From positions 310,001-374,000 of the forward strand of contig NC_011295.1 in assembly GCF_000020945.1 (NCBI RefSeq): a stretch of DNA of 64,000 nt, written 5' to 3'. Numbering within the stretch: the first letter of the stretch is position 1; each line of letters begins with the position of its first letter. Source of the DNA: Coprothermobacter proteolyticus DSM 5265 (lineage in GTDB: Bacteria > Coprothermobacterota > Coprothermobacteria > Coprothermobacterales > Coprothermobacteraceae). A program made the translations under genes and the position numbers. Under the pieces are notes generated by a model, which was not told the origin of the DNA, searched no databases, and saw only the letters and a list, made by a program, of their open reading frames with translations. Shown here in pieces: positions 19,016-46,268 of this stretch.

Positions 19016-19021
19016 GTTATT

Positions 19022-19168
19022 ACCTGCCGTGTGCGTAAGCAGGGGCAGAAGTGCATCCAACAAATGCGTCTTGGGAGCTCGAATCCTGCTACTGCTCAGG
19101 TAGCAGGAGGGAAGCACCCACCTGTGTGACAGGGACGCAGCTTTCTGGCCCTTTACGGCACGGCGGGT
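19022..19168 (+). ncRNA. ssrS: Rod-shaped non-coding RNA, candidate 6S RNA
   Basis: About 147 bases with nested long-range pairing. The outer stem is 19023-19031 (CCTGCCGTG) with 19159-19167 (CACGGCGGG), 9 pairs with one G-T. The second stem is 19041-19048 with 19145-19152, one mismatch. A lopsided bubble follows (19049-19064 against 19140-19144). Next comes TGCGTC at 19065-19070 with GACGCA at 19134-19139, and an apical hairpin CCTGCTAC/GTAGCAGG (19085-19092/19100-19107). The layout and the 5' segment TGCGTAAGCAGGGGCAG resemble the GTTCGCAAGCGGGCCAG part of E. coli 6S. It is short for 6S. SRP RNA is less likely because the GGAA apical loop is missing. Confidence 0.55.
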
Positions 19169-19190
19169 TTCTTTGAAGAGGGGAGGCATG

Positions 19191-42319: not shown

Positions 42320-42673
42320 TTGATAAACGAAAATAGCAGTAAGAAGAAAGTAGTTATTGTGATCTCTTCTGGTGATAAGCAGGTGATCATGCCTGCCTTG
42401 AACATGGCACTAAAATCCAAGAGAGACAACCTTTACGAAGACGTGAAAGTGCAGTTTTTTGGCATTAGTCAAAAGATTGCAGCTGAAGATCCTGATGTGC
42501 AAGAGCTTATCAGTGAATTGGTTAAGGCGGGCATTAGTCCCATGGCATGTCGCCACATCAGTGACAAATTTGAGGTTACAGTAAAACTTGATAATTTGGG
42601 TTTCGACAACGTGCAAATCCCCATAGAAATTGCAAAGCTGGTTAACGAAGGCTACATTCCTATGGTGTTTTAA
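42320..42673 (+). CDS. DsrE-like small protein
   Basis: A protein of 117 residues with an alternating beta-alpha pattern: VVIVISSGDKQVIMPALNMAL, DVKVQFFGISQKI, ISELVKAGISPMACRHIS and VQIPIEIAKLVNEGYIPMVF. This resembles the DsrE/YchN fold of sulfur-relay proteins; one Cys (in MACRHIS) lies where many DsrE-type proteins have their active Cys. The match is by eye. The TTG start is fixed by GGGAGG 8 bases upstream. It is cotranscribed with the nitroreductase that follows after 18 bases. Confidence 0.6.
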   Translation: MINENSSKKKVVIVISSGDKQVIMPALNMALKSKRDNLYEDVKVQFFGISQKIAAEDPDVQELISELVKAGISPMACRHISDKFEVTVKLDNLGFDNVQIPIEIAKLVNEGYIPMVF

Positions 42674-42691
42674 GGGCAGGGTGATACGAAC

Positions 42692-43345
42692 ATGAATTTT
42701 GAAGAACTTTCACAGCTTATCAAGAGTAGGCGATCTGTAAGGAATTGGCAGGATAAGGATGTGCCTGACGAAGTGTTGAAACAAGCGCTGGAATTGGCAA
42801 CCTATGCTCCCAGTGGTATGAACTACCAAGGCTGGAAATTCGTAGTAGTAAAGAACAAGGACATGATAAACGCCATCGCCGATGCTGTAAGAAGCAGGGC
42901 TCAGAAGGTAGCAAGCTGGGAGGAAACTGCTCGCCACATGGAGAATCCACAAGCCATGGTAGAGCGTGCTGGCTTCTTTAGAAAAGCTCCCGTGCTCATC
43001 GCAGTCTATTCCCAGATTTATCCCTCTAGCAGGGACCAAATCTACCTAGAACGTATGGCGCATGATGAAGAAGCCGCCTTGATGAAATCTTGGCTTGATT
43101 TGGCAAATCCAAGCATACAATCTGTTGCTTCAGGCATTGCATACCTCTTGTTGGCTCTCCTTGCACAGGGGCTGGGCAGTGTGTGGATGACAGGTCCCAT
43201 GCAAGCTAAAGGTGACATCGAACAGCTATTGGGAAAGCCTGAAGGATTCGATTTGGTGGCACTTATCGCTACTGGTTATCATGATGAAACACCTCGCCCA
43301 AAAACCATGAAATCATTTGATGAAGTGGTGCAATTTGTTGAATAA
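42692..43345 (+). CDS. Nitroreductase-family flavoprotein
   Basis: A protein of 217 residues of the same fold as the gene at 41712 but longer in the middle. Motifs: IKSRRSVRNWQDKDVP, LATYAPSGMNYQGWKFVVV, SVASGIAYLLLALLAQGLGSVWMTG and TGYHDETPRPKTMKSFDEVV. The insertion with RMAHDEEAALMKSWLDLANP is at about residues 122-145. It likely reduces an organic substrate with FMN and NAD(P)H; the substrate is unknown. It shares a transcript with the DsrE-like gene. Confidence 0.9.
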   Translation: MNFEELSQLIKSRRSVRNWQDKDVPDEVLKQALELATYAPSGMNYQGWKFVVVKNKDMINAIADAVRSRAQKVASWEETARHMENPQAMVERAGFFRKAPVLIAVYSQIYPSSRDQIYLERMAHDEEAALMKSWLDLANPSIQSVASGIAYLLLALLAQGLGSVWMTGPMQAKGDIEQLLGKPEGFDLVALIATGYHDETPRPKTMKSFDEVVQFVE

Positions 43346-43401
43346 AATTCATTACGTGTACGATTCCATAATTCAATCGAAAACGTATTAAACTTTAACT
43401 T

Positions 43402-43629
43402 ATGCGAGTGAAAATTGTAGGCCACATGGCTGAAGTTCTGTCAGTGCCGCCTGAAGGTCTTGAGGTTCTGTTGGATGCGCCCATAACATTAGGTGAGCTG
43501 GTCAAACGTCTTTGGAATGTGCCTTTTAGTTTGTTCATGGGGGCAAAGGTGGGTGATCTAAAGGTTTCAGAAGAATATGTAGTTACTGGCCACGAGGAAG
43601 AGATTGTTTTGCTATCAAATGGTGGGTGA
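43402..43629 (+). CDS. MoaD/ThiS-like sulfur carrier protein ending in Gly-Gly
   Basis: A protein of 75 residues with the beta-grasp pattern of MoaD: MRVKIVGHMAEVL at the start, a P-I-T-L-G-E-L-V-K-R-L helix, and HEEEIVLLSNGG at the end. The C-terminal Gly-Gly is the site that is adenylated and thiocarboxylated in sulfur carriers. No E1-like activating enzyme is in the window. The stop overlaps the frame of the LipM-like gene, six bases before its ATG, so the two are linked. No SD is visible; a TATTAA lies 10 bases before the ATG. Confidence 0.68.
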   Translation: MRVKIVGHMAEVLSVPPEGLEVLLDAPITLGELVKRLWNVPFSLFMGAKVGDLKVSEEYVVTGHEEEIVLLSNGG

Positions 43630-43634
43630 TAACC

Positions 43635-44375
43635 ATGAAAGCTACAGTCATATTTGATACTTGTAGAGAAGGCAGTTTGAACATGGCGCTGGACAGCCTG
43701 CTTCTGCAACAGCTGCGAGAAGAGGAGCAGGTGTTCCTAAGATTCTACACTTGGTGTCCAGCCACTGTGTCCATTGGTTTATTCCAAAAGTGGCAGCAGC
43801 AACAACAACATTCTCCTTACCCCGTGGTTCGGCGTCCTACCGGTGGAAAAGCTGTTCTTCATTTGCTCGATGTGAGTTACTCATTTGTTGGACCTCTTAG
43901 CGGTTTTGGAAACAGTGTTTTGGAAACCTATTTTCTTGTGTCTCAGGGGCTTATCAAGGGTCTTGAGCTTTTAGGAATACCTGCCGAGTTTCTGCCAGCA
44001 CCTTTGCCTACCAAGGAGGATCCATCAAGCTGTTTTGTTCATCTGTCAGGCCATGAAGTTGGCGTAGCAGGGAAGAAGCTTATCGGGTCAGCTCAAGCAA
44101 GAAAACCATGGGGCTTTTTACAGCATGGATCCATCATGGTTGAACCCATATACCATGAGATGGCTGAGCTGTTTTCCATTGAGGAATCTGAGATAAGAGC
44201 CCACGCTATTGCCCTTCGGGAGCTACTTCCCGATATAACCATAGGCGTACTTGAAAATGCTCTGCGTGAAGGTTTTGAGGATGCTCTGGATTTGCACTTT
44301 ACCCAGGCTGAGTTTTCCTCGAAGGAACTTTCGCAGGCTGCCTCATTTAGCGGGAAATACGCTGTATGCAGTTAG
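43635..44375 (+). CDS. Octanoyl/lipoate transferase family protein (LipM/LplA-like)
   Basis: A protein of 246 residues of the biotin/lipoate A/B ligase fold. Motifs: SLNMALDSLLLQQ, LRFYTWCPATVSIGLFQ, VVRRPTGGKAVLH (RRxxGGGxVxH type), a Cys in PSSCFVH, and GKKLIGSAQARKPWGFLQHGSIMV. The Cys and the GSAQxR-x-LQHGSI block fit LipM octanoyltransferase better than LplA. It would attach octanoyl or lipoyl groups to E2 or GcvH domains. The MoaD-like protein directly upstream is an unusual neighbour. Confidence 0.85.
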   Translation: MKATVIFDTCREGSLNMALDSLLLQQLREEEQVFLRFYTWCPATVSIGLFQKWQQQQQHSPYPVVRRPTGGKAVLHLLDVSYSFVGPLSGFGNSVLETYFLVSQGLIKGLELLGIPAEFLPAPLPTKEDPSSCFVHLSGHEVGVAGKKLIGSAQARKPWGFLQHGSIMVEPIYHEMAELFSIEESEIRAHAIALRELLPDITIGVLENALREGFEDALDLHFTQAEFSSKELSQAASFSGKYAVCS

Positions 44376-44980
44376 AAGCTAAAAGCATAATCGATCTAAC
44401 GCAAACCATTTCCGAAAATCTACAGGTATATCCGGGCGATCCACCAGTTGAGGTGCATACTGTGTCCACGCTTGAAGACGGTTTTGTTTTGGAGCGAGTC
44501 TGCATGTCCTCCCATGGAGGTACTCACTTGGATGCTCCTTGGCACGTTCTTAAGGGGGGTGCTGACGTAAGCTCTATTGCCTTAGAACGGCTCATATTGC
44601 CCTGTGTGTATGTGGACATGTCCGCCTTGTCAAAGAAGGAAGACCGCCTAGCCAAGCTAACGGGACGTTTTACGGACTTAAAAGATAAAGCATTACTTCT
44701 GAGCACTAATGAGAAGCTATCTGCGAATATTACACCCGAAGAAGTGGAAGTGCTCATAACTGGCGGTGTAAAACTGCTGGGTGTAGATGCAATGAGCGTG
44801 GAGCACAGTGATGATTTGGTGGTTCACAGACAACTTCTTTCTTCTGGGGTGCTCATTGTGGAGGGGTTGGCTAACCTTCACATGCTAAATGAAAAACAGG
44901 AGTATTTTTTGGTAGTTGCCCCACTGAAGCTGGAAGGCTGTAGTGGGGCTCCGGTCAGGGCTTTTGCGATTACACTATGA
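44366..44980 (+). CDS. Cyclase-family metal hydrolase (kynurenine formamidase-like)
   Basis: A protein of 204 residues with the family motif HGGTHLDAPWH (H-x-G-T-H-x-D-x-P-x-H) at about residue 50, preceded by the N-terminal IIDLTQTISENLQVYPGDP. The metal-binding His and Asp are intact. Relatives hydrolyse formylkynurenine or cyclic amides; no tryptophan-degradation genes are nearby, so the substrate is open. It overlaps the LipM-like gene by 10 bases and sfsA by 4 bases. Confidence 0.88.
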   Translation: MQLEAKSIIDLTQTISENLQVYPGDPPVEVHTVSTLEDGFVLERVCMSSHGGTHLDAPWHVLKGGADVSSIALERLILPCVYVDMSALSKKEDRLAKLTGRFTDLKDKALLLSTNEKLSANITPEEVEVLITGGVKLLGVDAMSVEHSDDLVVHRQLLSSGVLIVEGLANLHMLNEKQEYFLVVAPLKLEGCSGAPVRAFAITL

Positions 44981-45636
44981 AGTTTCCACCCCTGCTTTTT
45001 GGAACAGTTGTGGAACGTCAAAAGCGTTTCAAACTGCTTGTTGATTTTGACGACCATTTGGACTGGGCTTATCTGCCTAATCCGGGGCGGCTACGTGAAC
45101 TCATTTACCCGGGAGCTCCTGTGTGGTTAAAGCCTGTGCACTCTGCAAAACGCAAACTGGCCTATGAGGCTGTTCTTGGCTATGATTCTGTCCTGGTTTG
45201 TTTGTATGCCGCTTTGGCAAACAAATTGTTTCTGGAAAGTCTTGATCTGCTCGGTTTAGGCGGCAATGTTCAGGTGCTCAAAGAGGTTAGTTTAGGGCAT
45301 TCACGTTTAGATTTTTCTGTTGACGGACGTTTGGTGGAGGTAAAGTCTGTAACGTTAGTCCAAGATGGATTGGGCTTGTTCCCTGACGCTCCCACAAAAC
45401 GTGGAACTAAACATCTTTACGAGCTTGCTGATAAAGGTGAAGGCTTGGTGGTCTTTGTGGTGCAGCGGTGTGATGCAGAAGCTGTCACATTTCACAGTGC
45501 CATGGACGAGGATTTTGCAAGTGCCATGAAATGGGCAAAGAAGAAAGGTGTAAGTTTTAAAGCTGTGAACTGCATAGTAACAAAGGAGGAGATAAGGCCG
45601 TGGCGCGAAATTCCAGTGCTCTTCCCGCAAGATTAG
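44977..45636 (+). CDS. sfsA: Sugar fermentation stimulation protein SfsA
   Basis: A protein of 219 residues of the SfsA family: an OB-like N-terminus (PPLLFGTVVERQKRFKLLVDF, here residues about 4-24), LPNPGRLRELIYPGAPVWL and RLDFSVDGRLVEVKSVTLVQDGLGLFPDAPTKRGTKHLYEL (residues about 113-152). The D-x(n)-E-V-K region looks like a PD-(D/E)XK nuclease core, and SfsA binds DNA, but its exact role is unsettled. It overlaps the cyclase gene by 4 bases and the glycosylase gene by 37 bases. Confidence 0.93.
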   Translation: MKFPPLLFGTVVERQKRFKLLVDFDDHLDWAYLPNPGRLRELIYPGAPVWLKPVHSAKRKLAYEAVLGYDSVLVCLYAALANKLFLESLDLLGLGGNVQVLKEVSLGHSRLDFSVDGRLVEVKSVTLVQDGLGLFPDAPTKRGTKHLYELADKGEGLVVFVVQRCDAEAVTFHSAMDEDFASAMKWAKKKGVSFKAVNCIVTKEEIRPWREIPVLFPQD

Positions 45637-46268
45637 AAATAGCTAACTCATTAGAAGAGCTTGTAAGTCTTGTCAAGGACGAAGCTAAAGACCTTGTTTC
45701 TCAGCGAATTGCACAGTTCAAAAACTTCCCACGCCATGATGTGAGTAATTTGTTTTCCGAGCTCAGCTTTTGTGTGCTCACTGCGAACTGGAGCGCTCAA
45801 GGTGGAATGCGTGCTCAGGAGCTCATAGGTGAGGGTTTTCTAACCATGCCTCCTGAGGATCTTGAGGATGCTTTACGTAGTGTGGGTCACCGCTTCGCTT
45901 ACCAACGTGCTCGTTTCATTCTGGAAAACCGTCAGCGAGCTCATTTACTTCCTTTAATCGTAAACGGCAATCTGCCTTCACCAGAGGCTCGCAGCATGTT
46001 GGTCAAAAACTTTAAAGGCATCGGCTGGAAAGAAGCTAGTCACTTCTTAAGAAACGTGGGGTTACTGGACGTGGCAATCCTCGACAAGCACATCCTCAGG
46101 CTCATGCACCACTACAAGCTTATCGAGGATATGCCCAAAGGCTGGACCAGGGCTCGCTATGAAGCGCATGAACAATTACTTATTCCCATTGTGCAGAAGC
46201 TTCACATGGATTTAGGCGAAATGGATCTTTACCTGTGGTACGCTGTCAAGAACACTGTAGATAAGTGA
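45600..46268 (+). CDS. 8-oxoguanine DNA glycosylase/AP lyase, Ogg2-type
   Basis: A protein of 222 residues of the helix-hairpin-helix glycosylase superfamily. The HhH with catalytic Lys reads FKGIGWKEASHFLRNVG (about residue 140) and the catalytic Asp lies in VAILDKHILRL (about residue 158). This is the archaeal/Thermotoga Ogg2 layout rather than the longer Ogg1. It removes 8-oxoguanine. The GTG start has AAAGGAGGAG 8 bases upstream inside sfsA. A second HhH repair enzyme, Nth, is encoded at 50513. Confidence 0.85.
   Translation: MARNSSALPARLEIANSLEELVSLVKDEAKDLVSQRIAQFKNFPRHDVSNLFSELSFCVLTANWSAQGGMRAQELIGEGFLTMPPEDLEDALRSVGHRFAYQRARFILENRQRAHLLPLIVNGNLPSPEARSMLVKNFKGIGWKEASHFLRNVGLLDVAILDKHILRLMHHYKLIEDMPKGWTRARYEAHEQLLIPIVQKLHMDLGEMDLYLWYAVKNTVDK

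Follow-up and report, generated by a model that had tools for sequence, protein, structure and literature searches.

A MoaD-like beta-grasp protein encoded directly before a lipM-like gene in Coprothermobacter proteolyticus, with a C-terminal tail that varies within the genus

Introduction

Why should a gene for a MoaD-like protein with a free Gly-Gly end stand directly in front of a gene for an octanoyl/lipoyl transferase? The locus lies in a stretch of 64,000 nucleotides (hereafter, the window), positions 310001–374000 of the single 1,424,912-base contig of Coprothermobacter proteolyticus DSM 5265. A reading made earlier from the letters of the window (the sequence-only reading) described genes for a DsrE-like protein, a nitroreductase, a beta-grasp protein ending in Gly-Gly and a LipM-like enzyme in succession, and offered two ideas: that the carrier supplies sulfur for lipoyl or another thio-cofactor, or that it tags proteins. 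MoaDs linked to aldehyde:ferredoxin oxidoreductase (AOR) genes are a described class, for which the available text of the source suggests a service to the tungsten cofactor of AOR (Iyer et al. 2006, PMC1779556); aorD/aorE are likewise given as MoaD-like in the available part of PMC6365974.

Results

Organization of the gene run

All four genes were found in succession on one strand as described, and the MoaD-like gene does run almost into the LipM-like gene, with 5 nt from the MoaD stop codon to the LipM ATG. The features of the run are as follows.

42320..42673, + strand: DsrE/F-like small protein, 117 aa (phmmer, AlphaFold model); present in L046, L047 and L048
42692..43345, + strand: nitroreductase-family flavoprotein, 217 aa (PF00881, E = 3.8e-33)
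43385..43394, + strand: GTAYTAAACT motif, 7 nt 5' of the MoaD ATG; in 4 of 4 family loci
43402..43629, + strand: MoaD-like beta-grasp protein, 75 aa, C-terminus LLSNGG (homologues, predicted fold)
43621..43630, + strand: GGTGGGTGAT, the MoaD Gly-Gly codons, stop and next base; putative LipM Shine-Dalgarno position
43635..44375, + strand: LipM-like octanoyl/lipoyl transferase, single catalytic domain, 246 aa (PF21948, 2ars, motifs)
44366..44980, + strand: cyclase/arylformamidase-like protein, downstream gene overlapping LipM, same run (family search, family loci)
44977..45636, + strand: SfsA nuclease, downstream, same run (family search, family loci)
45600..46268, + strand: Ogg N-glycosylase/DNA lyase, final gene of the run (family search, family loci)

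Across the whole window, the sole Rfam match at gathering scores was a 6S RNA at 19018–19173 (49.5 bits, just above the gathering score of 46.4).

The DsrE-like protein had no Pfam or NCBIfam family above the cut-off. It matched PDB entry 2fb6 by phmmer (E = 1.3e-7), and its AlphaFold model, whose confidence is moderate (mean pLDDT 75.8, with residues 87–99 below 50), matched 2fb6 (E = 6.4e-6), 2pd2 and 1l1s, with weaker matches to entries named DsrE/DsrF-like; the predicted fold is of the DsrE/F type. Gene order and strand were as in the window in the three family loci that cover the whole region, L046, L047 and L048 (the last in Ch108, G004); a fourth, L045, starts inside LipM and does not. 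Twelve genes stand in constant order across the three, the end genes being ones that we take to encode an aminopeptidase-like and a phosphoketolase-like protein. In L048 (2227–3640), the aminopeptidase-like gene matches as two pieces in different frames, for which a misassembly or a frameshift may be responsible. In our searches, the DsrE/nitroreductase part was confined to family loci and was not found in the sister-family loci L073 and L074. Both genes are family-level neighbors, and the DsrE-like gene is probably not part of the MoaD–LipM unit.

The LipM-like enzyme and the lipoyl pathway

The 43635–44375 product matched PF21948 (LplA/LipB family; E = 6.8e-25, residues 15–214 of 246) and the overlapping PF03099, with no further Pfam family at E = 1, and matched 2ars at E = 8.8e-9. 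It contains RRPTGGKAV, the cysteine of SCF, which we take to be the catalytic cysteine of LipM, and the lysine of GKK. The predicted enzyme is an LplA/LipB catalytic domain with no accessory domain that has both the catalytic cysteine and the lysine positions of a LipM. The window type was the only LplA/LipB-family match in four genomes of the order (G001, G004, G005 and G006), so it should do all of this family's transfer there. The window genome also encodes a second LplA-family protein, which lacks the cysteine (L122, 1459–2145); its gene is convergent with dehydrogenase-like and lipoyl-domain-like genes, presumably those of a dehydrogenase complex.

LipA provides the lipoyl sulfur from its own Fe-S cluster. 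It was detected at E = 1e-5 in 7 of the 9 genomes of the phylum, five times above the curated cut-off and twice (G001 and G004) just below it. The window genome has both LipA and GcvH, the latter as a single PF01597 match at 753080, and this gene complement is that of the ordinary LipM–LipA–GcvH route as predicted from sequence. Since LipA supplies the sulfur, none would flow from the MoaD-like protein to lipoyl. The suggestion that the carrier feeds lipoyl synthesis has adjacency with LipM as its sole point in favor; set against the distribution of LipA, the origin of the sulfur in LipA's cluster and a homologue in the genus (L047) that lacks the Gly-Gly end, it is improbable in the extreme, and this part of the sequence-only reading was not supported. 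A lipoate cluster of the sHdr type was also considered and was dropped on account of the single GcvH-like match.

Fold and relatives of the 75-aa protein

The 75-aa protein had no Pfam or NCBIfam match at E = 1, and the MoaD/ThiS family PF02597 in particular did not match at that threshold. Its model (pLDDT 93.1) was a beta-grasp, the fold of MoaD/ThiS carriers, and the top PDB rows were MoaD and TtuB (2q5w_D, 5gha_H and 1fm0_D; Z 8.4 to 8.2). The best Foldseek E-value was 6.6e-3, and because no row fell below 0.001, the model speaks for the predicted fold and not for the family. Single-sequence phmmer against PDB gave chance-like matches only.

The window protein was used as a lone query against 60 genomes. 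Besides its own genome, the sole strong matches were in the family (G001, G003 and G004; E = 6.2e-29 or better). Elsewhere in the phylum, it matched G008 at E = 5.4e-4 and G007 at 8.2e-4; in the order's other family, the values were 0.15 for G006 and 0.27 for G005, and the matched ORFs lie directly 5' of a LipM-like gene. With the search restricted to their own loci, the G005 and G006 homologues gave E-values of about 4e-4 and 8e-4; taken from sequence alone, the case for the homology of these two is weak. All eight homologues have GH or GY close to the N-terminus and, except for the genus's tail variants, a strand after which come S and a tail rich in Gly. The G008 homologue passed the PF02597 cut-off, at 26.4 bits.

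A profile (A1) was built from these eight homologues, G005 and G006 included, and its re-finding of them is by construction. It had matches in 10 of 281 genomes outside the phylum, and among the matches listed, an AOR lay within 1.5 kb in 4 of the 10 loci (L104, L105, L106 and L111). No LplA-family match appeared in these ten loci: three queries run on L104–L114 gave none under E = 0.06; the same queries found 15 of 15 control loci (L030–L044) but 11 of 30 in L115–L144, so that distant members could be missed. Against PDB, the profile ranked designed TIM barrels first, which we interpret as artefacts due to repeats; TtuB appeared at E = 0.11 and 0.21. Our preferred reading of the 75-aa protein is a divergent branch of the AOR-linked MoaDs. 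The assignment rests on the homologues, because no AOR adjoins the gene itself: an AOR gene stood beside the homologue in G005–G008 and in none of the family loci, the window's included. Nor was MoaE or an E1 present among the ten scanned proteins neighboring the window MoaD. The other half of the sulfur-supply idea, a carrier for a thio-cofactor other than lipoyl, fits these relatives, since homologues adjoin tungsten AORs.

Conservation of the MoaD–LipM pair

The two genes were adjacent in every one of the six order genomes that have both intact (G000, the window genome, and G001, G003, G004, G005 and G006); in G002, a contig end truncates lipM, and MoaD was not found. Both sister-family genomes, G005 and G006, have the order AOR–MoaD–LipM, with none of the other window genes found in these loci. 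The LipM proteins of the two families are about 30% identical and stand apart in the best tree, and their common descent was not rejected (p-AU 0.451). Because order and strand are kept in three family loci and the pair recurs in 2 of 2 sister-family genomes, the pairing is above chance. In G007 and G008, which belong to the phylum, MoaD lies 3' of an AOR with no LipM adjoining. G008, which is outside the order, carries its MoaD of the window type and its LplA-family gene on separate contigs, and this counts against the explanation that we prefer below.

Outside the phylum, none of 77 LplA/LipB rows had a ThiS-family (PF02597) row within 5 kb (60 genomes, start positions; nearest 5,343), in a test of 88 LplA/LipB and 139 ThiS rows whose sensitivity is limited, as PF02597 misses the window type. 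For AOR rows, a ThiS row lay within 3 kb in 31 of 86 (30/74 and 1/12). A survey of Gly-Gly-ending ORFs at 50 LplA/LipB loci (20 of 33 and 30 of 88 matches), to which carriers without Gly-Gly are invisible, showed carriers adjoining the gene in just two loci, L025 and L029, which belong to the family. The Gly-Gly-ending ORFs of L030, L037, L041, L120, L121 and L140 and the second of L029 were dismissed by eye from strand, place or composition; that of L037 is on LipM's strand, about 170 nt upstream, and encodes 50 aa that are not carrier-like. The conserved neighborhood on which the sequence-only reading depended was therefore present within the order; outside it, our tests, whose sensitivity is limited, did not reveal one. 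The accessible portions of the LipM/LplA literature name no MoaD-like neighbor of LipM, and our search on MoaD with lipoate-protein ligase gave nothing that names LipM–MoaD adjacency (the available text of PMC1779556 does not contain "lipoate", nor that of PMC6067878 "MoaD").

These counts bear on the possibility that operon growth brought the two genes together by accident, so that they share transcription or translational coupling and nothing else. AOR and MoaD are a known pair, after which LipM may have landed by chance, and the 77 rows without a nearby ThiS match agree with this; recurrence of the pair in every intact order genome, across two families, speaks against it. We regard such an accident as a serious contender, at somewhat less than even odds.

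Other carriers, the E1 and the AORs

Four carriers of the window genome were above the PF02597 cut-off, three directly 3' of AORs and one before a gene that we take to be MoaE-like. One MoeB/ThiF-like E1 was found at E = 1e-5, so that both this enzyme and LipA, which had been named as genes to locate, are in the genome. The objection foreseen earlier, that standard MoaD and MoeB might be absent elsewhere, does not apply, given the MoaD before the MoaE-like gene and the E1. Two ORFs in tandem, presumably malonyl-CoA:ACP transacylase-like, are divergent from the single E1 gene (L147, 2–1411).

PF01314 identified four AORs in the window genome, one of them without an adjacent carrier (L062; C1, 1256022–1257227) and of one type with lone AORs in G001, G002 and G003. 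An AOR tree was computed from 26 of the 86 rows; of the 25 from the phylum, five are absent from it (G002 C123, C54 and C75, G006 C209 and G007 C196). The AORs G004_C2, G005_C5, G006_C84 and G008_C15 (the matching AORs) formed one clade with 100/100 support, for which, as elsewhere in the tree, the program warns that long branches meet. The clade holds none of the four AORs of C. proteolyticus and none of the three of C. platensis (G001). A tree with the lone AORs of the genus placed next to the matching clade, as its sister, was not rejected (p-AU 0.109); joining them to the Ch108 member was (p-AU 7.9e-5). The matching AOR is unlinked in Ch108 and was not found in C. proteolyticus or C. platensis; G002 and G003 are not complete enough to be scored as AOR losses, 3 of the 4 G002 AOR rows being outside the tree. 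Literature searches on Coprothermobacter with aldehyde ferredoxin oxidoreductase, an AOR operon or a lost diglycine gave no result.

The C-terminal tail and selection on the body

The tails differ within the genus. The window protein ends in LLSNGG (SNGG from the S on), L047 in LLSTTG (STTG) and L046 in LISPVHGGGTSA (SPVHGGGTSA). Within the family, Ch108 (L048) ends in LLSPVGGG (SPVGGG); outside it, the ends are ISPVGGG in G005 and G006 and LSPLSGG in G007 and G008. A C-terminal Gly-Gly is thus present in the window protein, L048 and G005–G008, is absent from L047 and is followed by three further residues in L046. The L047 tail comes from a single MAG contig; because the MoaD–LipM junctions of the window and L047 are equal in length, it is no obvious frameshift. 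Evidence for the tail change as a whole comes from three genomes of a single genus, of which one is a 68%-complete MAG. An intact tail occurs with the matching AOR and an altered tail where no such AOR was found, a correlation that may reflect a single event.

Over the first 72 codons, pS between the window and L047 MoaD genes was 0.724 and pN 0.067; the LipM values were 0.67 (synonymous) and 0.09 (non-synonymous), so that the MoaD body resembles neighboring genes. The body is under strong purifying selection in the genus, as the low pN relative to pS indicates; the tail is free to differ in form.

The window protein, still ending in Gly-Gly, may be a working carrier; a Gly-Gly end in one genome is no proof of this. 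We consider it a tentative, less favored possibility that it still serves the tungsten cofactor, either redundantly or for the AOR at 1256022. Consistent with this are the Gly-Gly end itself, the one AOR of four that has no adjacent MoaD and the redundancy of carriers described for Thermococcus in the available text of PMC11323500. Counted from the S/P column by eye, however, its tail has 4 residues, where each of the genome's four other carriers has 6; L047 has no Gly-Gly, and the three residues after Gly-Gly in L046 occur in a phylum in which a JAB peptidase was above the cut-off in 0 of 9 genomes (partial matches below it in 5 of 9). The same JAB result, the unconserved tail and the STTG end, which speaks against a Gly-Gly-dependent role in the L047 genome, make it very unlikely that the protein is conjugated to others as a tag, although carriers of this fold can do both according to the accessible part of PMC11323500.

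Transcription and translation of the putative unit

GTAYTAAACT was found in 4 of 4 family loci, 6–7 nt 5' of the MoaD ATG and with no Shine-Dalgarno sequence, and was conserved while the surrounding spacer was not. It is a possible −10 element of a leaderless promoter. A sigma-70 consensus scan called no promoter there, and with one mismatch allowed, the motif was not enriched across the window (11 found, 8.0 expected). In L048, the nitroreductase stop codon seems by eye to lie inside the motif. The G005 MoaD has a strong Shine-Dalgarno sequence (−10.8); between AOR and MoaD, both G005 and G006 show, as judged by eye, a GC-rich hairpin that has a T run.

The 20 nt upstream of LipM paired with what we take to be the anti-Shine-Dalgarno sequence at −3.3 to −7.1 kcal/mol across five junctions, the weakest being L047. 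The window value was −5.9 kcal/mol over the 20 nt before the ATG, with the pairing placed by eye on the MoaD tail codons; six other window genes ranged from 0.6 to −12.4. Gly codons may therefore be held in the MoaD tail by ribosome binding for LipM and not by sulfur chemistry.

The junction and the selected body also suit a different reading: co-translated with LipM, the protein would be its non-catalytic partner, binding or tuning the transferase independently of Gly-Gly, as LplB does for LplA. The pair has stayed adjacent through rearrangement of both flanks, the ribosome-binding site of LipM would fall in the MoaD tail codons of a tight junction, selection on the body is about as strong as on LipM, and LplB is a known, separately encoded small partner of LplA in the available texts of PMC6067878 and PMC10332631. 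Against it, the single-domain B. subtilis LipM was assayed with no such partner named in the accessible part of PMC6067878, and the same type of protein stands beside AOR with no LipM in G007 and G008. A partnership of this kind is unlikely on present evidence.

Discussion

We propose that the 75-aa protein descends from MoaD-type carriers encoded beside tungsten AORs and that, in Coprothermobacterales, its gene became the first of a putative transcription unit with lipM. LipM would octanoylate GcvH, and LipA would then add sulfur from its own cluster. Where the matching AOR was kept (Ch108 and the sister family), the SPVGGG end is intact, and the protein probably works for the tungsten pterin by way of the single MoeB/ThiF-like E1. 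Within the genus Coprothermobacter, the carrier role was probably lost or loosened, and the protein would have been kept for a protein contact independent of Gly-Gly, perhaps with LipM. We give this reading as a whole a probability of roughly 0.55. A bolder form, in which a carrier that lost its chemical end in one genus is now a Gly-Gly-independent subunit or regulator of LipM, a beta-grasp stand-in for LplB, seems to us quite improbable. The alternatives weighed above are not all mutually exclusive, and their odds need not sum to one.

What the locus appears to offer is a reactive tail and a folded body under different pressures within one genus, beside an enzyme that belongs to a different cofactor. 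Should the body have a role with LipM, carrier-type beta-grasp proteins would be linked to lipoylation without sulfur chemistry.

Among known systems, the enzyme resembles the LipM octanoyltransferase in being a single-domain member of the LplA family with the SCF cysteine and the GKK lysine, in a genome with LipA and GcvH; its activity is a prediction from sequence. The sHdr lipoate cluster (LbpA, sLpl and DsrE) likewise has DsrE-like and LplA-family genes near each other; the window differs from it in having nothing Hdr-like among the ten scanned neighbors and no LbpA near the ligase. With the MoaD of molybdopterin synthase and with TtuB, the protein shares the predicted fold and the Gly-Gly end, whereas it has no PF02597 match and a tail of 4 residues, not 6, as counted by eye. 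The closest likeness is to the AOR-linked MoaDs, as set out in the available text of PMC1779556: it is a small beta-grasp protein whose homologues in G005–G008 are encoded directly beside AOR genes, and it departs from them in having no adjacent AOR, in standing 5' of lipM and in the shortened and variable tail of its genus.
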